Source of the DNA: Flavobacteriales bacterium
GTDB taxonomy: Bacteria > Bacteroidota > Bacteroidia > Flavobacteriales_G > Salibacteraceae
Length of the DNA stretch: 64,000 bases
NCBI GenBank assembly: GCA_018660685.1
Contig: JABJJW010000024.1
Span: 62,001-126,000 of the forward strand
Direction: 5' to 3'
Both the position numbers and the translations under genes were made by a program. The notes beneath the pieces are model-generated. The model ran no database searches and had not been told where the DNA came from. It worked only from the letters and a program-made list of their open reading frames with translations. How positions within the stretch are numbered: the stretch's first letter is position 1; each line of letters opens with the position of its first letter. Below are positions 26,397-40,995 of this stretch, one piece after another.

Positions 26397-28169
26397 ATGA
26401 TCAGAGCGAAGATTGCTGAAGCTGTTGCGGCTTTTTTAAAGAAGGAGTTTGAACAAGACGTCGATTCGTCCACAGTCCAAATTGAAGTTACCCGAAAAGA
26501 GTTTGAAGGGGATTACACCCTCGTCGTGTTTCCTTTTGTGCGCATGATGAAATGCAAGCCCGAACAAGCTGCTGAAAGCCTGGGCGATTATCTACAAGAT
26601 GAGCTGGCAGACATAGTTGGTTTCGGAGTTATCAAGGGTTTTCTCAACCTCAATTTATCTGCTGAATACTGGACGAATCAACTCGAGGCTACGATCACAG
26701 ATACACAATGGACCTCTAAACGAGTTGGCGACGAATTAATGCTCGTTGAGTTCAGTTCACCCAACACCAATAAACCGTTACACCTGGGACATCTAAGAAA
26801 TATATTCTTGGGACACAGCGTCAGTCTTATCAATGAGTTTGAAGGCAAAAATGTCGTGAAAACGCAAATTATCAATGACCGAGGTGTTCACATATGCAAG
26901 AGCATGTTCGCCTGGAAAATGCACGGAAAGGGAGAAACCCCGAAATCAGTAGGGATGAAAGGAGACAAGTATGTGGGAAAGTACTATGTCATGTATGATG
27001 ACCATCTCAAGAAACAAGTAGAAGCATTAGTTAATAAAGGCCTCGAGGAGGATCAGGCCAAAAAGGAAGCAATGCTGACCAAAAAAGTCCAAGAGATGCT
27101 AATCGACTGGGAGAATGGGGATGAAGAAACCCGAGAACTCTGGAAAATGATGAATGGCTGGGTTTACGAGGGCTTTGATGAAACCTACGAACGGATGGGC
27201 GTTTCGTTTGATTATCTATACTACGAATCTGACACGTATCTAAAAGGGAAGTCCATCGTTGAAAAAGGCCTAGATCAAGGCTTATTCATTCAAAAAGACG
27301 ATGGTTCAATTTGGGTGGATCTAAAACAGGAAGGACTCGATCAAAAACTTTTGGTTCGGGCAGACGGAACCACGGTTTACATGACTCAAGATATTGGTAC
27401 TGCAGCCCAGCGCTACGAAGACTATCCTAATTTGGAGCGAATCGTTTACACGGTTGGGGACGAGCAGGATTATCATTTCCAAGTATTATTCCTAACGCTA
27501 CATAAACTTGGGTTTTCTTGGGCAGAAGCCTGCCGACACCTAAGTTATGGGATGGTTGATCTGCCGACCGGTAAAATGAAATCTCGCGAGGGTAAAGTCG
27601 TTGACGCCGACGATTTAATGGAAGAAGTTGTTAATGCGGCAAAATCATCTTCTCTTGAAAAAGGAAAGTTGAATGATATGGATGAAGCCCAACAGGCCGA
27701 ACTTTTCGAAATCTTGGGAATCGGGGCTTTGAAATTTTTCCTTTTGCGGGTTGACCCGCGAAAGCGAATGCTGTTCAACCCTGAAGAATCCGTGGCGCTA
27801 ACAGGCGATACGGGTCCCTTTGTGCAATACACGTATGCTCGTTGTCGAGCAGTATTGAGAAAAGGGGGAACCGAAGACATAGTTGGCACCTCACTCAGTG
27901 AAATTTCGGACAAGGAACGCCATCTCATGAGAGAGCTTAGAAACTTCCGTCAGGTTACAAAAGAGGCAGCCGAGAGCATGAATCCGTCTGCGATTGCTTC
28001 CTATGTTTTGGACATCGCCAAGCTATACAATCAATTTTATCACGATATTCACATTCTAAATGCAGAAGGGGATGAACGTAAATTCAGGTTAGGATTAACC
28101 AGTCTTACTGCTCAGACCATTAAAACTTCTATGTCTTTACTCGGAATACGAGTACCCGAAAGAATGTAA
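26397..28169 (+). CDS. argS: Arginyl-tRNA synthetase
   Basis: Class I aminoacyl-tRNA synthetase charging tRNA-Arg, 590 aa, the normal length. The N-terminal additional domain covers about residues 1-105. The HIGH-type motif is SPNTNKPLHLGHLRNIFLG (about 119-137). The adenylation core includes YTVGDEQDYHFQVLFLTL and the KMSK-equivalent GKMKSREGKVVDADDLM. The DALR-type anticodon-binding domain with PFVQYTYARCRAVL ends the protein. It begins directly at the arginase stop and overlaps the M1-like gene by one base (TAATG). Confidence 0.96.
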   Translation: MIRAKIAEAVAAFLKKEFEQDVDSSTVQIEVTRKEFEGDYTLVVFPFVRMMKCKPEQAAESLGDYLQDELADIVGFGVIKGFLNLNLSAEYWTNQLEATITDTQWTSKRVGDELMLVEFSSPNTNKPLHLGHLRNIFLGHSVSLINEFEGKNVVKTQIINDRGVHICKSMFAWKMHGKGETPKSVGMKGDKYVGKYYVMYDDHLKKQVEALVNKGLEEDQAKKEAMLTKKVQEMLIDWENGDEETRELWKMMNGWVYEGFDETYERMGVSFDYLYYESDTYLKGKSIVEKGLDQGLFIQKDDGSIWVDLKQEGLDQKLLVRADGTTVYMTQDIGTAAQRYEDYPNLERIVYTVGDEQDYHFQVLFLTLHKLGFSWAEACRHLSYGMVDLPTGKMKSREGKVVDADDLMEEVVNAAKSSSLEKGKLNDMDEAQQAELFEILGIGALKFFLLRVDPRKRMLFNPEESVALTGDTGPFVQYTYARCRAVLRKGGTEDIVGTSLSEISDKERHLMRELRNFRQVTKEAAESMNPSAIASYVLDIAKLYNQFYHDIHILNAEGDERKFRLGLTSLTAQTIKTSMSLLGIRVPERM

Positions 28170-29890
28170 TGTTGCTATACAGGACTTTCTTGATCGGATG
28201 CGTAATGACCCTGGGCTTCCAACATACTCTTGACGCTCAAATCAATATGTTTTGGGAGACTCCAGAGAATGAAATGGAGTACCGAAAGTTTACTCGGAAT
28301 GATTCCTTAAGAGGTGGCTATCACGATCTGCGTTCCAACAACGATGTCACCCATTACAAGCTTGATTTAACGATAAACCCTGCATCAAAATCCTTAAGTG
28401 GAAATGTGAAGGTTTATTTCCGCGCTTTGAAAATCATACATCAATTACAACTGGATCTGTATGATAATCTTAAAATTGAGTCCGTCCGGACACCGGGACG
28501 CGATGTTACGCTTAAGAGGGAACAACATAGACTCATATTGAATTTCGAACCAAGAATCAAAATTGGTGAACGAATCGAAGTTGAAATTCAGTATAAAGGA
28601 AAGCCCATCGTGGATGAGAACCCGCCTATGAATGGTGGTTTTATATGGCAAGATGATACACTAGGGAAGCCATTCGTCGGTGTGAGCTGTGGTCGGAAAG
28701 GGGCAAGTCTCTGGTGGCCTGTAAAAGATCATCTCTATGATGAACCCGACAGCGTAAGCATGACGGTGAGAATTCCACCGGACCTTAAATGCATCAGTAA
28801 TGGTAAGCTCAGGAATCATTACATCGACGACAACAATAAGCAGGTCTACGAATGGGCTCATTCATATCCTATCAACCCATATAATGTTACTCTCTATGTC
28901 GGTGACTATGTGCATATCGAGGATGCCTACCTGAGCAAATCAGGAAACTCTATTGACCTTCACTACTATGTCCGACCGGAAAACCAGGAAGCGGCGAGCA
29001 AACTCTTTAACGCTCAAGTAAAAAAGATTCTTGGGATCTTCGAAAGTCGATTTGGTCCTTACCCTTGGCCAAAGGATGGATTTAAGCTTGTCGAAAGTCC
29101 TTATGAAGGAGTAGAACACCAAACAGCAATTGCCTTTGGAGATAAATTCAACAGACAATCCTCGACTTCATTTGATGAAGTTCTGGTGAGGGCAACAGCC
29201 CATGAATGGTGGGGAAACAGCGTTACCGCTAAAGACTTCGGTGACATCTGGATTCATGAAGGGTTTGCTACCTATGCTGAGGCTTTGGTTGATGAGCAAA
29301 TTGCAGGCTATGAGTCCTATTTAAATTTTCTTTATCGAAAAGCATTTCTAATTACGAATTGGCAGCCCGTTATCGGTCCTTCCGAAGTGAAAAGCTGGGA
29401 CAGTACCCAACCCGACCCACAGGCTAAAGGCGCTCTCTTTTTGCACACTCTTCGCATGAAGATTGGCGACGATAGGCTCTTTTTCGATATTCTTTCTTCA
29501 TTTTATAAAAAGCATGCCCACGGTCATGCCACCACCCATGACTTTTTGGAAATGGTGACCAATAAGACCCGAGAACCGTACACACTACTCTTTCAGCAGT
29601 ATCTGTATCAACGAAAGCCTCCGGTTCTAGAATTTCAAGTCGTTAGAGGAATTGAAGGAGAAGAGAGCTATATGCTCTATCGCTATTCTGAAATCGTGGA
29701 TAAGCTTGAACTACCCTTGAAATTTAAGATAGGTGGCACGACCGTTCCGATAAACCCTCGACCGGAAGTTCAAAAAGTCATCATTCCAGACAATGGTAAA
29801 ATTATTAGAAATTCTACTGTTTGTTATGTCTCCTGCGTCCCTTCCGATAATTTACTCCAGCTTTTTGAAGAGCAGGGGAATAAGGAGTAA
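28169..29890 (+). CDS. M1 metallopeptidase homologue lacking catalytic residues (predicted pseudoenzyme)
   Basis: M1 aminopeptidase-fold protein, 573 aa, with a signal peptide (residues 1-24). The N-terminal beta-saddle has HYKLDLTINPASKSLSGNV (about 63-81), and the substrate-side motif is SPYEGVEHQTAIAFGDKF (about 310-327), the place of GxMEN. At the zinc site the expected HEXXH reads RATAH (341-345): first zinc-ligand His and catalytic Glu are Arg and Ala. The second His (345) and the downstream Glu (364, WIHEGFATYAEAL) remain. The conserved Tyr before KGA (YxKG) is Gln 418. So peptidase activity is unlikely. It is translationally coupled to argS. Confidence 0.85.
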   Translation: MLLYRTFLIGCVMTLGFQHTLDAQINMFWETPENEMEYRKFTRNDSLRGGYHDLRSNNDVTHYKLDLTINPASKSLSGNVKVYFRALKIIHQLQLDLYDNLKIESVRTPGRDVTLKREQHRLILNFEPRIKIGERIEVEIQYKGKPIVDENPPMNGGFIWQDDTLGKPFVGVSCGRKGASLWWPVKDHLYDEPDSVSMTVRIPPDLKCISNGKLRNHYIDDNNKQVYEWAHSYPINPYNVTLYVGDYVHIEDAYLSKSGNSIDLHYYVRPENQEAASKLFNAQVKKILGIFESRFGPYPWPKDGFKLVESPYEGVEHQTAIAFGDKFNRQSSTSFDEVLVRATAHEWWGNSVTAKDFGDIWIHEGFATYAEALVDEQIAGYESYLNFLYRKAFLITNWQPVIGPSEVKSWDSTQPDPQAKGALFLHTLRMKIGDDRLFFDILSSFYKKHAHGHATTHDFLEMVTNKTREPYTLLFQQYLYQRKPPVLEFQVVRGIEGEESYMLYRYSEIVDKLELPLKFKIGGTTVPINPRPEVQKVIIPDNGKIIRNSTVCYVSCVPSDNLLQLFEEQGNKE

Positions 29891-29907
29891 TGATTCACCA
29901 TTCTTCA

Positions 29908-29937
29908 TTGTTTCCTAATTCTAGCTCCTTACTTTTG
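29908..29937 (+). promoter_or_regulatory. Promoter of ffh
   Basis: TTG at 29908-29910, 19-nt spacer, TACTTTTG at 29930-29937: a full Bacteroidota -33/-7 pair. It lies 28 nt before the ffh ATG and starts a new transcription unit after the M1-like gene. Confidence 0.7.
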
Positions 29938-29965
29938 CCATCCTTTTTAAAACTGGGAATTACAC

Positions 29966-31309
29966 ATGTTTGAAAGTCTTTCGGAGAAGCTAGAGAAGTC
30001 CTTTAAGGTCCTCAAAGGGCAAGGTCAGATCACAGAGATCAATGTTGCAGAGACGATGAAGGAAATTCGTCGGTCGCTCCTTGACGCTGATGTCAATTTT
30101 AAAATCGCAAAGGATTTCACTAGTACTGTAAAGGAAAAGGCACTCGGAGAAAATGTACTCACGGCAGTTTCACCTGGTCAACTTCTAGTGAAGATTACGA
30201 AGGATGAGCTGTCCAATTTGATGGGTGGTGAAGCCGAGGACATCAATTTAGTCGGCAAACCTGCCGTTATTCTGATGGCCGGCCTTCAAGGTTCAGGTAA
30301 GACAACTCACACAGGTAAACTTGCTAGATTCCTAAAGTCTAAGCGCGGAAGACAGGTATTACTCGTTGCTTGCGATGTGTACCGTCCTGCGGCCATTGAT
30401 CAACTTGAAGTGGTTGGAGAACAGGTCGGTTGTGAAGTCTATTCGGAGAGAGAGAATCAAGATCCGGTTGCCATAGCGAAGAATGCGATCAAGCATGCTG
30501 AGAGCAAAGGAATTAACACAGTCATCGTTGATACAGCTGGTCGCCTTGCGGTAGATGAACAAATGATGGATGAAATTGAAGCCATCAAGAAAGGAATCTT
30601 TCCATCTGAGACCCTTTTTGTCGTTGACTCGATGACCGGTCAAGATGCTGTAAACACAGCTAAATCATTTAATGAGCGCATTAATTTTGACGGAGTAATT
30701 CTCACCAAGTTAGATGGTGACACCCGAGGTGGTGCTGCCTTGTCTATCCGATCTGTGGTTGAAAAGCCGATCAAGTTTGTTGGTTTAGGTGAAAAGATGG
30801 ACGCTTTGGACGTTTTCCATCCAAACAGAATGGCCGATCGTATTCTTGGAATGGGTGACATTGTTTCCCTCGTCGAGAAGGCTCAAGAACAATATGATGA
30901 GGAAGAAGCTAGGCGGCTTCAAAAGAAAATTGCCAAGAACAAATTTGATTTCAACGACTTCCTTGGTCAGATTCAGCAGATCAAGAAAATGGGCAACGTG
31001 AAGGACCTCATGGGCATGATTCCAGGAATGGGAAAGGCAATGAAAGATGTTGATATTGATGATGATGCCTTCCAAGGAATTGAGGCGATCATTCGCTCTA
31101 TGACCAAGGAGGAAAGAGAAAATCCACACGTGATCAACGGAAGTAGAAGGACGAGGATAGCTGCCGGAGCTGGAACAACTGTCACTGAGGTAAACAAACT
31201 CCTGAAGCAGTTTGAGGAGATGCGAAAAATGATGCGTATGTTCAACGACAAATCCAAGATGAACCAGATGATGCAATCGATGAAAGGTGCACCTGGTAAA
31301 ATGGGCTAA
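29966..31309 (+). CDS. ffh: Signal recognition particle protein Ffh (SRP54)
   Basis: GTPase that, with 4.5S RNA, brings nascent membrane proteins to the Sec translocon. The 447-aa product has the N domain (1-90), then the G domain: LMAGLQGSGKTTHTGKLA (about 104-121, G1), DVYRPAAIDQL (about 136-146), DTAGRLAVDEQMM (about 189-201, G3), TKLDGDTRGGAAL (about 246-258, G4) and GLGEKMDALDVF. The methionine-rich M domain starts at about 325; the C-terminus has the clusters MRKMMRMF and MNQMMQSM that cradle signal sequences. folD follows after 10 bp. Confidence 0.97.
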   Translation: MFESLSEKLEKSFKVLKGQGQITEINVAETMKEIRRSLLDADVNFKIAKDFTSTVKEKALGENVLTAVSPGQLLVKITKDELSNLMGGEAEDINLVGKPAVILMAGLQGSGKTTHTGKLARFLKSKRGRQVLLVACDVYRPAAIDQLEVVGEQVGCEVYSERENQDPVAIAKNAIKHAESKGINTVIVDTAGRLAVDEQMMDEIEAIKKGIFPSETLFVVDSMTGQDAVNTAKSFNERINFDGVILTKLDGDTRGGAALSIRSVVEKPIKFVGLGEKMDALDVFHPNRMADRILGMGDIVSLVEKAQEQYDEEEARRLQKKIAKNKFDFNDFLGQIQQIKKMGNVKDLMGMIPGMGKAMKDVDIDDDAFQGIEAIIRSMTKEERENPHVINGSRRTRIAAGAGTTVTEVNKLLKQFEEMRKMMRMFNDKSKMNQMMQSMKGAPGKMG

Positions 31310-31319
31310 ACACTGACCT

Positions 31320-32195
31320 ATGGAACTTATTGACGGCAAAGCCATCTCACTCACTTTGAGAGAAGAACTGAGAATTGAAGTAGAAGAAATGGTGAAAGGT
31401 GGCCATCGACCTCCGCACTTAGCAGTGATTCTCGTAGGAGAAAATCCTGCAAGTCAGGCCTACGTCGGGGCAAAAGTCAAGGCTTGCGAGAAGGCCGGCT
31501 TTAAGAGTTCCTCCCTCCATTTTGAACCAACCATTTCGCAGGACGATCTATTGAAGGCCATCCAAACCTTGAATGATGATGATGAACTGGATGGGTTTAT
31601 TATTCAACTTCCATTGCCTGATCATATTGACGAAAACGCAGTAATTGAAACGGTAGATCCTACAAAGGATGTAGATGGATTTCATCCGATCAATGTTGGG
31701 CGAATGGCAATTGGTCTAGATTCATTCATATCTGCCACACCAGGCGGAATTGTTGAGATGATGAGAAGAATGAACATCGAAACGGAAGGCAAGCATTGTG
31801 TCATCCTTGGAAGAAGTAACATCGTCGGTGCTCCAATGGCGATGCTGATGAGGCGCAAAGGGCATCCTGGAAATTGCACCGTTACCGTCGCTCATTCACG
31901 AACCAAAGACATCAAAAGCATTACGACTCAAGCTGACATTCTCATTGCTGCAATTGGAATTCCTGAATATGTCAAGCCTGATATGGTGAAGGAAGGGGCG
32001 GTGGTCATTGACGTTGGAATCAACAGGGTTGAAGATGCCTCTCGAGAACGTGGCTATCGACTAACTGGTGACGTCGCATTCGGTGAAGTCAGTCCTAAGT
32101 GTAGTTACATTACTCCTGTCCCGGGAGGTGTCGGACCAATGACTATTGCCTATTTACTGAACAACACGATGATAGCAGCCCGAAAGAGGATGTAG
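31320..32195 (+). CDS. folD: Bifunctional methylenetetrahydrofolate dehydrogenase/cyclohydrolase
   Basis: Converts 5,10-methylene-THF to 10-formyl-THF using NADP, feeding purine synthesis. The 291-aa product has the substrate segment VGENPASQAYVGAKVKACE (about 36-54; catalytic Lys in the YVGAKxK motif), FIIQLPLPDHID (about 94-105), KDVDGFHPINVGRM (about 118-131), and the NADP loop VILGRSNIVGAPMAMLM (about 161-177). VIDVGINR and the closing PVPGGVGPMTIAYLLNN are intact. Shares a transcription unit with ffh. A weak hairpin follows the gene. Confidence 0.96.
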   Translation: MELIDGKAISLTLREELRIEVEEMVKGGHRPPHLAVILVGENPASQAYVGAKVKACEKAGFKSSSLHFEPTISQDDLLKAIQTLNDDDELDGFIIQLPLPDHIDENAVIETVDPTKDVDGFHPINVGRMAIGLDSFISATPGGIVEMMRRMNIETEGKHCVILGRSNIVGAPMAMLMRRKGHPGNCTVTVAHSRTKDIKSITTQADILIAAIGIPEYVKPDMVKEGAVVIDVGINRVEDASRERGYRLTGDVAFGEVSPKCSYITPVPGGVGPMTIAYLLNNTMIAARKRM

Positions 32196-32202
32196 TCCTC
32201 AT

Positions 32203-32221
32203 TCTTGCTCATAATGCAAGA
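32203..32221 (+). terminator. Weak hairpin downstream of folD
   Basis: TCTTGC, 7-nt loop, GCAAGA makes a 6-bp stem 7 bp after the folD stop, followed only by a short TTT. It could be a weak terminator or processing site. The remaining gap to murB (32222-32310) holds no other feature I can support. Confidence 0.25.
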
Positions 32222-32310
32222 TTTCAGCGTTCACAGTTTTCAACATTGCACCTGTTTTAAGTGTCTGCTCAAGAGAGTATATAATCATCCGCGTTTGCGT
32301 TCTTTGCTAG

Positions 32311-33318
32311 GTGATTATTGAAGATCAAGTCGATTTAACGCCATTCAACACATTTGGCCTCAGCGCAATTGCGGAACGACTCGTACGCATTCGTACGCAA
32401 GAAGATCTCCTTGCATACTTTCAGGACTTTAAAACCCCATCACTTGTACTAGGCGGAGGGAGTAATTTGCTTTTGACGAAAGACATTTCTGGTGATGTGT
32501 TGCGATTAGAGATTCCAGGAATTGACATCATCGATGATTCCGAAGACTCTGTATTGCTTGAGGTCGGGGCCGGAGTCGTCTGGCACGAATTTGTTCTCCA
32601 TTGCATTGCACAGGGTTGGGGTGGCGTTGAGAATTTATCCCTTATCCCGGGGAGTGTTGGTGCAGCTCCCATGCAAAACATAGGCGCATATGGTGTCGAC
32701 CTCAGTAGCGTGTTTGATTCACTTACTGCTTATTTGATAGCGGATGAAGTCTTTGAAGATTTTAATAATGAAGCGTGTCGGTTTGGTTATCGAGAGAGTA
32801 TTTTCAAAAAGGAATTGAGAGACAAGGCTGTTATCAGCTCTGTTCGATTTAGACTTCAGAAACACCCAACCCTGAACACCAGTTATGGTGCCATTGAAGC
32901 TCAACTGGATTCCATGGGATTTGCGGATTTGTCTATCAAGGCGATAAGCGATGCCGTGATTGCCATTCGGAGGAGTAAGCTACCGGATCCAGAAGAAATT
33001 GGAAATAGTGGTAGTTTTTTTAAAAACCCGGTGATCGATCAACTAGAATTTGAAAGACTTCAACGAGAATTTCCGGGAATCGTAGGCTACCCAGCTGGTA
33101 GCAGATTAGTAAAAGTGGCTGCAGGCTGGCTTATTGAGAAAGCCGGATATAAGGGCAAGTCATTTGGAAATTACGGCGTTCATGCGAATCAAGCTTTAGT
33201 GCTCGTTAACCATGGCGGAGCAAAAGGTTCCGATGTTTTTAACCTAAGTGAAGAGATCATTCACACAATTGACGAACTTTTTGAAATACGACTTGAGCGA
33301 GAGGTTAATGTGATCTAG
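32311..33318 (+). CDS. murB: UDP-N-acetylenolpyruvoylglucosamine reductase
   Basis: FAD enzyme making UDP-MurNAc for peptidoglycan. The 335-aa product starts at GTG 32311 with MIIEDQVDLTPFNTFGL, the typical type-I MurB opening (NTFG). LVLGGGSNLLL (about 46-56), LIPGSVGAAPMQNIGAYG (about 111-128, FAD loop), the FGYRESIFK segment with the conserved YR(D/E)S (about 154-162), and GNSGSFFKNPV (about 231-241, with the catalytic Ser) are intact. KSFGNYGVHANQALVLVN closes the domain. The length and C-terminal part fit the E. coli-type enzyme. Ends 4 bp into the convergent kinase remnant. Confidence 0.96.
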   Translation: MIIEDQVDLTPFNTFGLSAIAERLVRIRTQEDLLAYFQDFKTPSLVLGGGSNLLLTKDISGDVLRLEIPGIDIIDDSEDSVLLEVGAGVVWHEFVLHCIAQGWGGVENLSLIPGSVGAAPMQNIGAYGVDLSSVFDSLTAYLIADEVFEDFNNEACRFGYRESIFKKELRDKAVISSVRFRLQKHPTLNTSYGAIEAQLDSMGFADLSIKAISDAVIAIRRSKLPDPEEIGNSGSFFKNPVIDQLEFERLQREFPGIVGYPAGSRLVKVAAGWLIEKAGYKGKSFGNYGVHANQALVLVNHGGAKGSDVFNLSEEIIHTIDELFEIRLEREVNVI

Positions 33319-33656
33319 GCTCTTGGAACTCGAAGGGTGCATTTTGTGCCACTTCCCAGCTTTGAGTCGACTGTGAGATCAATGCCCAGTTGATCACAGA
33401 ATAGTTTTACCAAGGGTAAACCGATACCATGTCCTTTTTCATCGGATGTGCCTCTGCTACTTCCGCCGACAATGAATATGTGCTTCAATTGATCTGATGA
33501 CATCCCTATTCCATTGTCGGAAATGCTCAGTTCAATGTGCTGATCAGACTCCATCGATTCAATCTTGATTTCACCCGCTTTTTTATCACTGAATTTAACC
33601 GCATTGCTCAAAAGGTTTCGCACTATAATTCCGAACATTTCTCGATCTGTAGTCAA
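33315..33656 (-). CDS. C-terminal HATPase part of the interrupted histidine kinase
   Basis: Same frame as the upstream part, beyond the stop. It could be translated from a TTG at 33656 as a 113-aa ATPase domain (MTTDREMFGI to the end) with all ATP-binding boxes. No promoter is seen between the two parts, so separate expression would rely on reinitiation. Confidence 0.55.
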   Translation of the reverse strand: MTTDREMFGIIVRNLLSNAVKFSDKKAGEIKIESMESDQHIELSISDNGIGMSSDQLKHIFIVGGSSRGTSDEKGHGIGLPLVKLFCDQLGIDLTVDSKLGSGTKCTLRVPRA

Positions 33657-33692
33657 TTCAACAGCGTGTAATTCAGTATTTATAATTACCTT

Positions 33693-34541
33693 TTATTTCC
33701 GCACTTGGGATTTAAACAGATTGATATTCTCGGCCAAGAACGGCTCAATCGGAATGAGTTCCGTCTTTACCATTAGACCGTCCGTTTGACCTTTACTCCA
33801 GTAGAGGAGATTATCAAGCATGTTGCTTGTAATGTCAACCTCTGTACGAATGAAGTTTAATGCCGTAGTCAATTCTTCCTGACTCATGTTCTGTTCATCA
33901 GTAATCATGAGCAAAGACTTCAAAGAATTAATTGGAGACCTCAAATCGTGAGAAATAATGTTGAGAAGTGTATTTCTCAATTCAACGGTTTCCAAGAGTT
34001 CTTTTCGCTGACTCTCCTGCCGATCTCGAAAAAATCGGGTTGCGATGTAAATGATAATGAGCGCTGCTACAACATTTGGAAAAAACAATAGAGACTCAAG
34101 TTCGGTCATCTCCTGATATCGACCTCCAGTATACAATACCACGTAGCTACCGATGAAGAATGCACCCGAGACTCCCCATATTATTTCACTCCAGTACTTT
34201 CTTGCTTTGACGAGATATGAAACAATGATCATCCCGGAAATAAGATACAGGTGGGCATTGATCAAGCCAAAGCGATAGACATATAGAAACATCAATGCTG
34301 GAAGCGCAAGGAAGAACATCCAAAAACTAAAATTGTAACGACCTGCCCGACTTAGAAAATAGGATATTAAACAAATGGTGCCCGTTAACATGTTGAATAG
34401 ACTGTATTCAACAAACCCAGCTGGGAATGTAAACAGGGAGTAGCCGAAGGTGATCACACCTCCAGTAAGTGATATTCGAGTGAACAACTGTTGATCCAGC
34501 TGATCTTCGAATTTTGGAATTAGTTCATTGAATCCGCTCAT
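33693..34541 (-). CDS. N-terminal part of the interrupted histidine kinase (membrane domain plus HisKA)
   Basis: Open reading frame of 282 aa ending at the internal TAA. It contains the hydrophobic helices (about residues 25-180), the linker FFRDRQESQRKELLETVELR and the HisKA domain with His 198. Without the ATP-binding domain it could not autophosphorylate by itself. Confidence 0.7.
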   Translation of the reverse strand: MSGFNELIPKFEDQLDQQLFTRISLTGGVITFGYSLFTFPAGFVEYSLFNMLTGTICLISYFLSRAGRYNFSFWMFFLALPALMFLYVYRFGLINAHLYLISGMIIVSYLVKARKYWSEIIWGVSGAFFIGSYVVLYTGGRYQEMTELESLLFFPNVVAALIIIYIATRFFRDRQESQRKELLETVELRNTLLNIISHDLRSPINSLKSLLMITDEQNMSQEELTTALNFIRTEVDITSNMLDNLLYWSKGQTDGLMVKTELIPIEPFLAENINLFKSQVRK

Positions 34542-34651
34542 CCTCGAATTTGCGTAGCTAAGGTTTTACGGTGATGCATTGATGCAGGTTGGGTGAGGTT
34601 GGCGCAAGATACCAGAAATGAAAAACTTTATATCACACGGAATAAGACGAT

Positions 34652-34888
34652 CTACTCCTCCGTTTTCTTACGCTCTAAATCAAATTCTTCTGCTGAACTG
34701 ATTTCCCAGTGGTCATCTTTCATGTCTAGCATGTCCTGAATGAGGATTCGATCTGGATGCACTTTCGCTTCAAAATAGAAGAACTCACTTTTCGAACCAG
34801 TCAGTTTAATCTCTTGGAATCGTTGATATGAAGTGATTTTGAAGAGTGATCGTCGATTTGTGTACTTTCTGTAAGCTGGAAATTTCAT
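34652..34888 (-). CDS. Small conserved hypothetical protein
   Basis: A 78-aa protein from ATG 34888 starting MKFPAYRKYTNRRSLFKI. It resembles small uncharacterised proteins common in Bacteroidota that open MKFPxYRKYxNxxSxF and end in an acidic, Trp-containing tail; here the middle has EAKVHPDRILIQDMLDM and the tail WEISSAEEFDLERKK. No function known. The frame is open to 34975, but that would overlap the divergent TPR gene; 34888 fits the conserved opening, and a one-mismatch -7 box lies 6 nt upstream of it. Confidence 0.6.
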   Translation of the reverse strand: MKFPAYRKYTNRRSLFKITSYQRFQEIKLTGSKSEFFYFEAKVHPDRILIQDMLDMKDDHWEISSAEEFDLERKKTEE

Positions 34889-34926
34889 TCGGTGCAAATG
34901 AATCGATGCTTTCGATGAGAAACAAA

Positions 34927-34957
34927 TTGAATGTGGAAATGTTGAACCGTAAATTTG
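34927..34957 (+). promoter_or_regulatory. Promoter of the TPR gene at 34962
   Basis: TTG at 34927-34929, 20-nt spacer, TAAATTTG at 34950-34957, then 4 nt to GTG 34962. A full match that also supports the GTG start and implies a leaderless transcript. Confidence 0.55.
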
Positions 34958-34961
34958 AGGT

Positions 34962-35555
34962 GTGATATCAAACAACCCATTTTACATCAGTGGTCGGAAG
35001 AAATTTGAGGCTCAGGATTATCAAGGAGCACTCTCAGACTACAATCAGGCGATTGAATCGGAAGAGAATCCTTCGATATACAGCGAAAGGGGAGTGGTCC
35101 AATTCTATTTGAAAGATCTCAATAAGAGTTTGGATGATATGAACTATGCTGCCAACTTGGAGCCTGAGAACCCATATCGCTACTCGAGCCGAGCGTTCAT
35201 TAAAGACGCAATGGGCAACACTGAAGCGGCAATTGAGGACTATGAGATTGCAATCAAGCTAGATCCTGAGGACAGCATCGCTCACAATAATTTAGGCTTG
35301 CTGCAGGAGAAGCTTGGCTACATGAAACTAGCCAAGACAAACTACAAAAAGGCTGATGAGTTAGCCGATATAGACAACCTTTTGGAGCGAATCCAAGATG
35401 AACAATCTGAAGACCAAGCCGATCCACCTCCACAATCCACTTCTCATGAACTGAGACAACGCATCTCCTTGGTCGCTCTTGTCAGGGCAACATTTACCAC
35501 CAAAGACGGATTCAAAGAGTATGTTCGTTTTATCAAGAACGGATTTCGTGCCTGA
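34962..35555 (+). CDS. Tetratricopeptide repeat protein
   Basis: A 197-aa soluble protein with three to four TPR units: YISGRKKFEAQDYQGALSDYNQAIE (about 7-31), a second around SIYSERGVVQFYLKDLNKSLDDMNYA, a third around RYSSRAFIKDAMGNTEAAIEDYEIAI and a fourth around SIAHNNLGLLQEKLGYMKLAKTNYKKA (to about 133). A Gln/Glu-rich linker and a short C-terminal helix follow. TPRs are protein-protein interaction modules; the partner is unknown. It precedes the AddB-like gene and overlaps it by tens of bases, so they are cotranscribed. Confidence 0.82.
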   Translation: MISNNPFYISGRKKFEAQDYQGALSDYNQAIESEENPSIYSERGVVQFYLKDLNKSLDDMNYAANLEPENPYRYSSRAFIKDAMGNTEAAIEDYEIAIKLDPEDSIAHNNLGLLQEKLGYMKLAKTNYKKADELADIDNLLERIQDEQSEDQADPPPQSTSHELRQRISLVALVRATFTTKDGFKEYVRFIKNGFRA

Positions 35556-38280
35556 AAGAACCACTTTCCTTAATCACGCAGCAAAAATTATTCAAGGCGA
35601 TGATTTTTCGGGAAAGAAGCTGGTAATAACTCCGAATAAAAGATCCCTCTTCCGTCTCAGGCACATGGTGCCAGAAGCAGATTTTGAGACTGTTGACGAG
35701 CTCATGCAAAAGCTGAGCGGATCGAATCTCATAGAGCCAGAAGAACTACTCATTACTTTTTATCAGGCCTATAAGAGGCTAGAAGAGAATGCACAACCTT
35801 TTAACGAGTTCAGCAAGTGGGCAATCACTTTTCTCGGAGATGTGAATGAGATTGATCTCTATCTTCAAAATGTGTCGAGCATATACGAGCATATTTCTGC
35901 TTACCATTCGACTGGAGAAGGTTTTGATGGCAAGGAAAAAGGGGAATTAGAATCGTCGTATTTGTCGTTTTGGGAACGACTTCCTGAATACTATCAGGCG
36001 CTCAAAACAGATCTCGCTAAACTTCAGCTTTCGTACCGCGGAAGCATTTATCGAACCGTGGTGGAGAACCTTGAATCCAGTCCAGCCAAAATCGAGAAGG
36101 CATTTGATGGCTATCGACTTTACTGGTTGGGTATTGTACCCGGGAACCCTTGTGAGCATCGCTTACTTGAATGGTTGGATGCACGATCACAGCTCAAGAC
36201 ATTGGTAGATGTTGACCACTATTATTTGGACAGAAAACTCCATGAAGCAGGTCGACCATTTAGAGAGCAGAAATTCCTAGACAATTCGGATGAACCCACA
36301 AATTTGTTACTGAATAGTCAGTATGATTTTAAAATACATCCGCTAACGGGAAGGTTTGCACAGATAATGCGCCTGAAGACTTTAATTGAGGATATTTCAG
36401 AAGAGGAATATGGAAACTCAGCTATAATTCTAGCAGACTTAACCCTCGTTCAACCCTTGTCTTCACTCATCCAAGACAAAGGACTCAAAATTCATCTCAC
36501 ATCTGGTTATCCATTACGTAATACCACGATCCATCGCTTTCATATGTCATGGATCAACCTTCATCAAACCTCGATCACACGCAACGGGGAAAAGGCATTT
36601 TACCACAAGTTCTTAAAAGAATTCTTTGAATTTCCTGTGGTCCAAGAATGGTTGGCGGGGGCAATTGAATGGAAATCGTTGAAGGATCGAATCGTCAAAA
36701 AGAACATCAAATACGTTCCGTTATCTTGGCTTCAAGAATCACTGAATGATGACCTGTTTGCAAGGGAGGCGCTGAGGTTATTGTTTGAATGGGACGCTGA
36801 GTCAAGCACGCTATTCCAAACAATTAGTGAAATCTTAGGAAATTGGAGGTCTGCGGAAGGTGGTATAAAGATTTCAAAGTTTGATCAGGTTTGCCTTGAC
36901 GCTTACATTGAAAAGCTTAACCTTTTTCTGACACAATTCAATGAGGTTGTTGAGGAAGCGGATTTGACACTTCTGAAACAATTCATACATCGCCACATGG
37001 CTCATGCGCGCATGCACTCGGAGCTAGATGATGAAGATGGCCTTCATGCCATGACTCTTTTTGAAACGCGCCTTCTGGACTTTAAGCATCTGATTTTTGT
37101 CGGGGCATCTGATGATCATCTGCCTGGATCAATGCACAAAGTTTCACATATTCCTATGATTCATCGGCTCCACTTTGGTCTACCTACACGCCGAGATTCC
37201 GAGTCGCTCTATTCCTATCATTTTTATCGGTTGTTACAGCGTTCAGAACGGGTTGACTTCATTTATGACACATCAATGAATGCTCTGTCCGGAGGTGAAC
37301 CTTCAAGATATATAGCACAGTTGAAAGAAGAATTGACTAGGCAAAATCTAAAGGCGAGCATCAGCCTAGTAAAGGAAGCGAACGTGCTCATGGAGTCTTT
37401 CCAGAATGAGTTGAGCATTACGAAGACAGAAGATGTAGTCAACTCTTTGAAGGCAGCGTTGAAAAACAACCTGAGTGCGTCAAGAATCAATCAATTCATC
37501 AATAGCCCGTTGGAGTTTTATTTCTATTACATACTCAAAGTCAAAGAAGAGGATAGGGTAGAGGAAATTATTGAGAGTAGCACGTTTGGGAATATCGTGC
37601 ACAAAGTGTTGGAAGAGATATATAAACCATTTATTGGAGAGCTGATAGACCTTGAACAGCTTCAGAAAGCCATTCGGATCTCGGATGAAATTACCGAGCG
37701 TGTATTCGAGTCGTACTTCGAGCGAGCCGAATTTCAAACTGGGCAAAACCTCATTTCGCTTCACGTGATCAAAGAGTATATTAAAGGGTTTGTAGAATGG
37801 GATGTTGCCGAGATGAAAGAGAACGGGCCGGTTCGCCTTCTAAGTCTTGAGCTACGAATGAGTGAAAGGTTCAAATCAAATGGGCTTGAAATCAACCTAT
37901 ACGGAGTAGCAGATAGAATCGATTCTCGAAATGGCGAAATCAGAGTAATCGACTATAAATCAGGGAAGGTTGAAGCCAGTGAACTTGCCTATGATGAAGA
38001 ACGAATTGGAGTAGATTTCAAGCATGGAAAGGCGTTGCAAATTGCATTGTATATCTATCTGTATTGCCAACGTCACAATCTTGATGAATCTCAAGTCGGT
38101 GGGTACGTATACTCGTTCAAGAATCGAAAAGCAGGTTATATCTCTCTAACGGTAAAGAGTATGGGTTCAGATTCTCTCTTGGATAGTTTCGCTCAGCGAC
38201 TCGACTCCTTGGTCAGTGAAATGTTAGATCCATCAACGCCATTTACTCACCATGAGGATTCAAAATACCTCACAGTCTAA
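35521..38280 (+). CDS. AddB-like PD-(D/E)XK nuclease/helicase-fold protein
   Basis: A protein of about 919 aa similar to the AddB subunit of AddAB recombination nucleases. The N-terminal helicase-like half opens GKKLVITPNKRSLFRLRHMV; the later helicase-like landmark is KHLIFVGASDDHLPGSM. The C-terminal nuclease domain has GNIVHKVLEEIY, then LYGVADRIDSRNGEIRVIDYKSG with the catalytic D-x-K (Asp/Lys of VIDYKSG). The four Cys expected for the AddB iron-sulfur clasp are absent: NSPLEFYF has Ser where family members have Cys, and the protein stops at HHEDSKYLTV where a CxxC...C tail normally follows. Start ATG 35521 or GTG 35548; both overlap the TPR gene. No AddA gene is in the window. Confidence 0.8.
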   Translation: MFVLSRTDFVPERTTFLNHAAKIIQGDDFSGKKLVITPNKRSLFRLRHMVPEADFETVDELMQKLSGSNLIEPEELLITFYQAYKRLEENAQPFNEFSKWAITFLGDVNEIDLYLQNVSSIYEHISAYHSTGEGFDGKEKGELESSYLSFWERLPEYYQALKTDLAKLQLSYRGSIYRTVVENLESSPAKIEKAFDGYRLYWLGIVPGNPCEHRLLEWLDARSQLKTLVDVDHYYLDRKLHEAGRPFREQKFLDNSDEPTNLLLNSQYDFKIHPLTGRFAQIMRLKTLIEDISEEEYGNSAIILADLTLVQPLSSLIQDKGLKIHLTSGYPLRNTTIHRFHMSWINLHQTSITRNGEKAFYHKFLKEFFEFPVVQEWLAGAIEWKSLKDRIVKKNIKYVPLSWLQESLNDDLFAREALRLLFEWDAESSTLFQTISEILGNWRSAEGGIKISKFDQVCLDAYIEKLNLFLTQFNEVVEEADLTLLKQFIHRHMAHARMHSELDDEDGLHAMTLFETRLLDFKHLIFVGASDDHLPGSMHKVSHIPMIHRLHFGLPTRRDSESLYSYHFYRLLQRSERVDFIYDTSMNALSGGEPSRYIAQLKEELTRQNLKASISLVKEANVLMESFQNELSITKTEDVVNSLKAALKNNLSASRINQFINSPLEFYFYYILKVKEEDRVEEIIESSTFGNIVHKVLEEIYKPFIGELIDLEQLQKAIRISDEITERVFESYFERAEFQTGQNLISLHVIKEYIKGFVEWDVAEMKENGPVRLLSLELRMSERFKSNGLEINLYGVADRIDSRNGEIRVIDYKSGKVEASELAYDEERIGVDFKHGKALQIALYIYLYCQRHNLDESQVGGYVYSFKNRKAGYISLTVKSMGSDSLLDSFAQRLDSLVSEMLDPSTPFTHHEDSKYLTV

Positions 38281-39851
38281 GGGTTGATCCTCAATCGAGC
38301 TTGCATTATTGTTTGACTCTCTGCTGAATGCTCGATCACAAACACGTCAAAATCTCCCTGCTGCTGCCCTGACTCAAAATTTAGATGAAGCCCATTATTC
38401 CCGACCGTGATGCGAGGGTTCCAATAGAGGGTATTGCTGAGTGCAGCTTTACCCGGAAGTTCATTTTCTAACGCTTTCCACTCTACGACTTCTTCATATC
38501 CTGAGAAATCAATTAATTCGACACTTTTAGGGAGGTCCAAGCCGCCAAGTCGGCCATTTTTGGAATGTATTGATACGACGCCATTTATTTTCTCATCACC
38601 ATAGTAATATGGATTTGCGATGACTCGGATGGCTTTGATTTTGGAAGGGGCGAGCCTTAGAATTTCGTTATGATTTATAAAAGGCACATTGTCCAGGAGC
38701 ACGAGTGGGTTTTCCAATGGCTTGTGGAATTGATGATCATAGATGCTGATGAATTGCTCACCATCTTTTTCACGCACTGCTGAATATGGAATGAGCTCGG
38801 TGAAAACTTCTTTCATTGAACCGAGGGCGATAAAATCTGCTAAAACGATTTCTTCAGTCGGGTTTGTAAATGGCGGTGGGACTCCTTTCTGGGAAAGAGT
38901 AGAATACGCTTCTTCTCCGTATACCGAATTCATTTTGGCATTAAAGCTTACTCGATTTAGGATGGACACAAGGGAATCGGTCATGACGATGTCCTTTCCA
39001 GCATGATCGATATTCAATGAGGGAAATTCCTGATCGACTAAAAACTTTGTCTCTGATTCGATAATTTCAGGCGCAAGCAGATAGACGACCTCTGCCGGCA
39101 TAATCGCTCTGAAAACCAGTATGAATCGGCCGTTCTCATCGGTTCGTCCTAAATGCAGCTCTGGACTACTTCCCATTGTGCTCCCGACAATCAATGTGTT
39201 GGCGATGGGAGTCTTATTGCTTGGATCCAACAAGCTTCCTTTTAGCGTCGTAGATCGTTTTTCAGTGAAACCAAAAGTTCGTGCTTCTGGAAAACTGCAA
39301 TCAACACTTATGTTTTGTTTCACTGGGTTGAACGTGTTACGTGGGACAACAGTTAAGCAATACTCTCCTGCTTCAAGCCCATCAATATTCAGATTGACTA
39401 TACCACGTTCGATTCGGGTATCCAGTTCAATGGGTTCAAGCTTCGTGGAAGATTTAGCTGCGCTTGTCTTCATTTTAGTCAAAGGAGCCGATTGATAGTT
39501 AACCACAATGAGCTCAACCTGTGATAGTTGAAAATGGGTAGAGGACAGTTGTTCCTTCGTGTAGGTCCTTAAGTAATAAGTGCCAGTCCTAAGATCTGAG
39601 GGAAGCTGAAGGACTCCATTGCAAGCCAAATCGGCAATCGCGAACTTCCCATTTATAAAACGTTCGCCCTGCTCATTCGTGAGATCAGCGTAGAGGACGG
39701 CGCTCTCTGTTTCGATCGATAATTGGGTGCTAAACCAAATTTTTTCACCTGCGGCATAGATATTTCGATCTGTGACCAGACTAACTGATTGAGCGCTGCT
39801 TGCAAATTGCATCGCCGAATAGAATAATATGAAGAACAAGGCCCTAATCAA
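38277..39851 (-). CDS. Surface protein with MG2-like, carboxypeptidase-regulatory-like and TonB-plug-like segments
   Basis: A 524-aa exported protein, last gene of the TonB operon. From TTG 39851 (its TTGATTAG overlaps the upstream stop) it begins LIRALFFILFYSAMQFASSA, a signal peptide. VSLVTDRNIYAAGEKIWFS and YYLRTYTKEQL resemble the MG2 strand pattern of alpha-2-macroglobulin-like proteins. LKGSLLDPSNKTPIANTLIV to about residue 260 resembles a carboxypeptidase-D regulatory domain. Near the end PLENPLVLLDNVPFINHNEIL, then IKAIRVIANPYYYGDEKINGVVSIHS match a TonB-receptor plug, but no beta-barrel follows. An accessory subunit of the neighbouring receptor is plausible. Longer open frames upstream lack a signal peptide. 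Confidence 0.72.
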   Translation of the reverse strand: MIRALFFILFYSAMQFASSAQSVSLVTDRNIYAAGEKIWFSTQLSIETESAVLYADLTNEQGERFINGKFAIADLACNGVLQLPSDLRTGTYYLRTYTKEQLSSTHFQLSQVELIVVNYQSAPLTKMKTSAAKSSTKLEPIELDTRIERGIVNLNIDGLEAGEYCLTVVPRNTFNPVKQNISVDCSFPEARTFGFTEKRSTTLKGSLLDPSNKTPIANTLIVGSTMGSSPELHLGRTDENGRFILVFRAIMPAEVVYLLAPEIIESETKFLVDQEFPSLNIDHAGKDIVMTDSLVSILNRVSFNAKMNSVYGEEAYSTLSQKGVPPPFTNPTEEIVLADFIALGSMKEVFTELIPYSAVREKDGEQFISIYDHQFHKPLENPLVLLDNVPFINHNEILRLAPSKIKAIRVIANPYYYGDEKINGVVSIHSKNGRLGGLDLPKSVELIDFSGYEEVVEWKALENELPGKAALSNTLYWNPRITVGNNGLHLNFESGQQQGDFDVFVIEHSAESQTIMQARLRINP

Positions 39852-40995
39852 TCCAGAATGCAGGTTTGTTGAGGTAGCCACCTCGGGTTCTACAATCCAT
39901 GCAAGAAATTGGAGGTCTGGCAAGCCGACCTGCGGCATCCAATGTCAAGTAAACAGGCCATTCATTTGCTCTGGAAAATCGAAGCCAGCCTACTGCTTCT
40001 CGTTCCACATCGGTGATTTGACATTCAGGATAGCGCATTGGGCCATCTTTCCAACGAAGAAAAATCCTCTTTTCACTTTTGCCCGCTACCGTAAAGTAAC
40101 CGAGAATAACTTCTTCGTCATCTTCTGCGCCATAGACGTTGCCTCGAATTTGATAGGGCTGCTGGGCAAAAACGCTTCCTTGAGATTCTTTTAGTTTCCT
40201 AATTCTTTGCCAATAGTCGTAAGCCTTTTCAGAAATAACGAGTTGTTCGACTAAGAGACTGTATCTCCTGCTCAAGGCTCTTGAATATGTGTCCTCAAAG
40301 TGAAGGGGTTGTTTGTCTATTCGAGGCTTCGATCTGTTCAGTGTATTCTCTGTGAAGACGTCCAATATTTTGTTGGTTGAGTAACAAGTCGACCAGATGT
40401 TAGGAGCGGGAAATTCAAAAAAGTTTCCGTTTGTATAGTAGAATTCAACAGTGAAGTCAGCGTTGAATTTGAAAGTGTTCTCTACTCGCCAAAGGAAGTA
40501 GGTCGAATCACGGTCACTTTCCTTCGTGTCTACGAAGAATTGATATCCTTCCCTTCCCAGTGGAAAGTCAAGTTCTTCACGCATGTCGTATTCGTAGTAC
40601 ACCGAATCAATCCCAACACTAGGGAGCATCAATTGTGGATCTGATAGGTATGATTTTCCTTCTGGAGTCTCAATGAAAACGCTGTACTTTCGACCTGGAA
40701 CCCCTTCGAATTCCAAAGGCTTTGTTTGATAAACGCCCTCTCCTAATTCATCAAGATCAACGAAACTTCCTTCATCATCCGTTATCCTGACAGTACATCC
40801 TTCATAGTACTGAAAATTGAGACTGTCGATTCCTCCTGTTTTTGAGAGAATCACAGAGTGTGGACCAAGCCCAGAACTAATCATTCCATCGACCACTAGG
40901 ACGTCGTCATAATTCTCTGTATCCAAGTCAAACGGATCAATGCAGCTACTTAAAATTAGCGCCACGGCCAATATGAGAATATGCCTAGATCTCAT
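39844..40995 (-). CDS. DUF4249 lipoprotein, TonB-receptor partner
   Basis: A 383-aa lipoprotein: MRSRHILILAVALILSSCID is a signal peptide with lipobox LSSC and Cys 18. The DUF4249 pattern follows (VLVVDGMISSGLGPHSVILSKTG, then YYEGCTVRITDDEGSFVDL, then GVYQTKPLEFEGVPGRKYSVFIET). Genes of this type lie directly after TonB-dependent receptors in Bacteroidota and are thought to be surface lipoproteins assisting uptake, as SusD does. An in-frame start at 41043 is possible but would precede the signal peptide. Overlaps the receptor gene by 11 bp and the next gene by 8 bp. Confidence 0.85.
   Translation of the reverse strand: MRSRHILILAVALILSSCIDPFDLDTENYDDVLVVDGMISSGLGPHSVILSKTGGIDSLNFQYYEGCTVRITDDEGSFVDLDELGEGVYQTKPLEFEGVPGRKYSVFIETPEGKSYLSDPQLMLPSVGIDSVYYEYDMREELDFPLGREGYQFFVDTKESDRDSTYFLWRVENTFKFNADFTVEFYYTNGNFFEFPAPNIWSTCYSTNKILDVFTENTLNRSKPRIDKQPLHFEDTYSRALSRRYSLLVEQLVISEKAYDYWQRIRKLKESQGSVFAQQPYQIRGNVYGAEDDEEVILGYFTVAGKSEKRIFLRWKDGPMRYPECQITDVEREAVGWLRFSRANEWPVYLTLDAAGRLARPPISCMDCRTRGGYLNKPAFWID

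Follow-up and report, generated by a model that had tools for sequence, protein, structure and literature searches.

A probable accessory gene for a membrane-bound sensor kinase of the HisKA type, located in the 64,000-nucleotide stretch of Flavobacteriales DNA analyzed here (the window), has probably lost its function recently through a premature TAA within its ATP-binding domain, a reading for which the base calls come from one assembly. Under this reading, the kinase gene would occupy, as an accessory gene, the space between murB and the next conserved open reading frame (ORF), and its translation would end after 282 codons. The product would be a membrane protein that possesses the phospho-accepting helices but lacks most of the ATP-binding fold, and could therefore not phosphorylate itself.

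The kinase frame and its internal stop

The minus strand from 34541 to 33315 constitutes a single frame of 407 sense codons with exactly one internal stop, a TAA at codon 283 (33695-33693). The first part of the gene (33693..34541, minus strand, 282 codons and the TAA) encodes a hydrophobic N-terminal region, with several hydrophobic stretches in the hydropathy profile, followed by a HisKA domain (PF00512; 30 bits compared to a cut-off of 26.9) with the motif SHDLRSP, which carries the phospho-accepting histidine, and by the opening strand and helices of the modelled ATP-binding domain. The rest of the frame (33315..33692, minus strand, 125 codons) continues in the same phase through the remainder of the ATP-binding domain, detected as HATPase_c (PF02518; 80.4 bits), to the natural stop. 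No uninterrupted frame spans both domains, since the TAA intervenes at codon 283, but the kinase motifs are all still in place on the frame. The first ATG, GTG or TTG past the stop is a TTG at 33656, 12 codons (36 bases) on, which opens a restart ORF of 113 amino acids (33315..33656, minus strand). A preliminary description of this DNA had reported a kinase split by one in-frame TAA, with 12 codons separating the stop from the next possible start; the frame translation bears out both statements and, together with the Pfam matches, confirms the coordinates and active-site motifs given there.

The codon scores of the two kinase parts (0.233 before the stop and 0.259 after it) are close to the window mean of 0.25, and no second lesion was found in the frame beyond the TAA. 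First-position GC (0.438 and 0.488) is below that of the window genes (0.518), a difference that does not date the event. We infer correct base calls, an inactive product and a recent event, the last because of the normal codon score and the absence of a second lesion; however, a single lesion fits a sequence error equally as well as a young pseudogene. No response-regulator gene was apparent beside the kinase on reading the ORFs listed for positions 28000-40000, and a search of Rfam over 32000-36000 returned no structured RNA at the gathering score.

Homologues and genomic neighborhood

In an alignment with 74 homologues, a hand-picked set comprising 58 sequences from 80 loci and 16 from another search, the column of the stop is occupied by lysine in 68 sequences, arginine in two and another residue in four. 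The alignment crosses the stop without a shift, ruling out a chance neighborhood of ORFs. Full-length relatives were identified in five other genomes (G074, G028, G020, G262 and G286), with 30-39% identity to the window kinase before the stop, 33-43% after it and approximately 30-41% overall, the N-terminal region aligning as well. All five are uninterrupted and have lysine at the stop column; relative to these intact homologues the window frame is disabled, as in a pseudogene. With the stop shared by none of the five, a conserved split gene is ruled out. A close genome carrying the kinase was sought for a near-strain comparison and none was found. A search of plasmids returned at least 5000 matches, all below 60% identity to the kinase, with five matches listed at 24-27%.

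At its 3' end the kinase frame overlaps, by 4 bases, the 3' end of a conserved neighbor, murB (32311..33318, plus strand; Pfam MurB_C), and its other edge is marked by a short conserved ORF (34652..34975, minus strand). Beyond this lies a further conserved neighbor (34962..35555, plus strand), labelled TPR-like from its sequence rather than from a family search. Neighbor labels other than murB (folD, TPR-like and addB-like) are presumptive, being read from the sequences. The genes murB, short ORF, TPR-like and addB-like occur in this order in all eight genus loci fetched (L119-L126), and folD precedes murB in six of them. Neither half of the kinase was matched in any of the eight (E 1e-3); in six, murB and the short ORF are separated by no more than about 115 bases, and in L121 and L122 other ORFs occupy the slot between these two genes. 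Two additional murB loci (L108 and L109), examined with flanks of 1.5 kb, contained no match to the kinase or the short ORF. Among 12 genus relatives, with all candidates scored, no full-length kinase match was found at E 1e-50; three (G006, G008 and G010) match at E 1e-30, only from approximately residue 169-173 and not over the full length. Because it is absent from the slot in the genus loci, the kinase appears to be an accessory gene that was either acquired in this lineage or lost repeatedly in others.

The content of the slot differs by species, with the kinase in the window (33315-34651), a 510-amino-acid ORF in L121 (3810-5490), and two overlapping minus-strand ORFs in L122 (7700-8500) that are perhaps one broken gene. 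With contents that vary in this way from one species of the genus to another, the gap separating murB from the short ORF resembles a minor insertion site. The short ORF probably begins later than its listed TTG start, because the matches of its relatives begin at residue 29-30 in seven of eight loci (residue 20 in the other); an ATG at about 34888 lies near this point and would give a product of some 78 amino acids. For the addB-like ORF, the TTG given as its start falls within the last part of the TPR-like gene (35479-35555), and the matches of its relatives begin at 35500-35611; its true start may likewise be later than listed.

Position of the cut and fate of the products

An AlphaFold model of the read-through frame, run with 27 relatives (mean pLDDT 75, pTM 0.56), has pLDDT above 90 in the blocks covering residues 261-350 and low values in the membrane part. 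The modelled elements around the stop are a strand at 260-264, which from general knowledge of the fold we take to be the start of the ATP-binding domain, helices at 265-274 and 277-282, and strands at 286-290 and 295-299. The stop falls between helix 277-282 and strand 286-290, and the restart TTG corresponds to residue 296, within strand 295-299; both are placed inside the ATP-binding fold by the prediction itself rather than by a fold comparison. The preliminary description had located the stop between the HisKA and ATPase domains, which agrees with the Pfam borders but not with the model, where the stop is predicted to sit inside the ATP-binding domain.

The same description had anticipated two products in the event of read-through. 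The two kinase halves would each miss part of one fold, and it is unlikely that both work, because the stop interrupts the ATP-binding fold of the model. The idea of a working split kinase, composed of two proteins that complement each other, draws on the TTG restart 36 bases past the stop and on EnvZ, whose separated domains can reportedly work in trans, although a literature search on split or trans-working EnvZ returned no paper recognizable as showing trans function. Besides the position of the cut, a restart product that begins in strand 295-299, with strands 260-264 and 286-290 and the helices between them missing, speaks against it, as does the absence of a split from all five full-length relatives; this arrangement is barely credible.

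It is also very unlikely that read-through of the TAA yields some full-length kinase. The frame is open on both sides of the stop with a normal codon score, and in-frame stops kept under selection have been reported for prokaryotes, in a study that retained only stops common to two or more genomes (PMC7918605); none of the five full-length relatives carries the window stop. Moreover, TAA terminates 27 of 43 selected window genes, which likewise rules out an altered genetic code, and no tRNA with a UUA anticodon was present among the 34 tRNA genes found, a result from 150 of 190 first-look candidates scored in an assembly that is 96% complete and for which an Ile-GAT tRNA is also not listed.

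Origin of the stop and comparison with known systems

There are several potential explanations for how the stop arose. A consensus or assembly error, with the kinase gene of the organism intact, is unlikely; in its favor, the TAA is the sole lesion in the gene, the codon score is normal in both parts and the genome assembly consists of 28 contigs. As a control, 28 of the 43 selected window genes have counterparts in the fetched relatives, and across these 36,690 bases no internal stop was found, a result that weighs against indel errors but constrains a lone substitution error much less. Matches in other frames within this control were neighboring genes at three gene borders; a generally broken sequence is thus unsupported. 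Of the three origins offered earlier (a recent event, an error or read-through), the first two are the likely ones, while read-through finds no support in the tRNAs, the use of TAA or the relatives.

The +2 frame across the stop complicates a simple nonsense substitution. Its five codons (33688..33702, minus strand) read AEIKG and agree, in register, with the corresponding columns of the family profile at 8.87 bits, a score reached in their own frame by 17 of the 74 homologues, by none of 296 shifted windows at the stop site and by 5 of 35,298 windows taken off-frame from the homologues. Over the four columns without the stop, the +2 frame scores 5.34 compared to 1.08 for the in-frame residues, and under simulated simple nonsense the chance of such a match was 0.0008 (8e-4), so that the match fits this origin poorly. 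Because the +2 frame agrees with the family more closely than the residues read in frame, a single nonsense substitution is not certain. The stop could instead stem from a small local multi-base change, real or artefactual, with a gain of about two bases before AEIKG and a loss after it; we regard this as doubtful, in odds that overlap with those of the pseudogene and error readings and do not exclude them. Two small consensus errors close together could also produce the +2 match, although two indel errors within approximately 16 bases would be unusual beside the clean 28-gene control. The AEIKG pattern was, however, first noticed by inspection and only then tested, and with the actual in-frame residues fixed and synonymous codons drawn at random such a match arises with a chance of 0.017 (1.7%). 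Furthermore, the in-frame residues fit acceptably, with a probability of scoring at least as well of 0.80 if native and 0.14 if off-frame; locus L149 has QARDKGV, close to the in-frame QVRK-stop-KV; and two compensating indels have a far lower prior probability than one substitution. We regard simple nonsense as more likely than a local multi-base change. A bypass of the stop in the living cell, through read-through or through paired ribosomal frame changes via AEIKG, would give low and possibly conditional amounts of full-length kinase, and is highly improbable.

Just past the stop lies an inverted repeat, GTAATT/AATTAC (33668-33689, minus strand), which is possibly due to chance; its six-base arms are too short for any claim that it was the source of a templated local change.

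The window most likely contains an ordinary object: an accessory kinase that either broke recently or carries an assembly error. A real stop would mean that this lineage has an extra sensor kinase that has been lost again, as commonly happens to accessory genes, whereas a consensus error would make the case a warning against inferring a lost function on the basis of one assembly. Wider interest would attach only to a bypassed stop, which has no support here. Compared to HisKA membrane sensor kinases (PF00512 with PF02518), the window kinase shares the domain order and motifs but differs in its in-frame stop and in having no response-regulator gene seen adjacent. With the read-through stops of PMC7918605, it shares an open frame to either side of the stop; however, the window stop occurs in no other genome examined, whereas that study required at least two. 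Failed transferred genes are a frequent source of prokaryotic pseudogenes according to a survey (PMC522871) in which the matches counted were those carrying two or more disablements. The window kinase differs from the pseudogenes described there in its single lesion and normal codon score, but resembles them in its patchy distribution, its absence from the slot in relatives and its premature stop.
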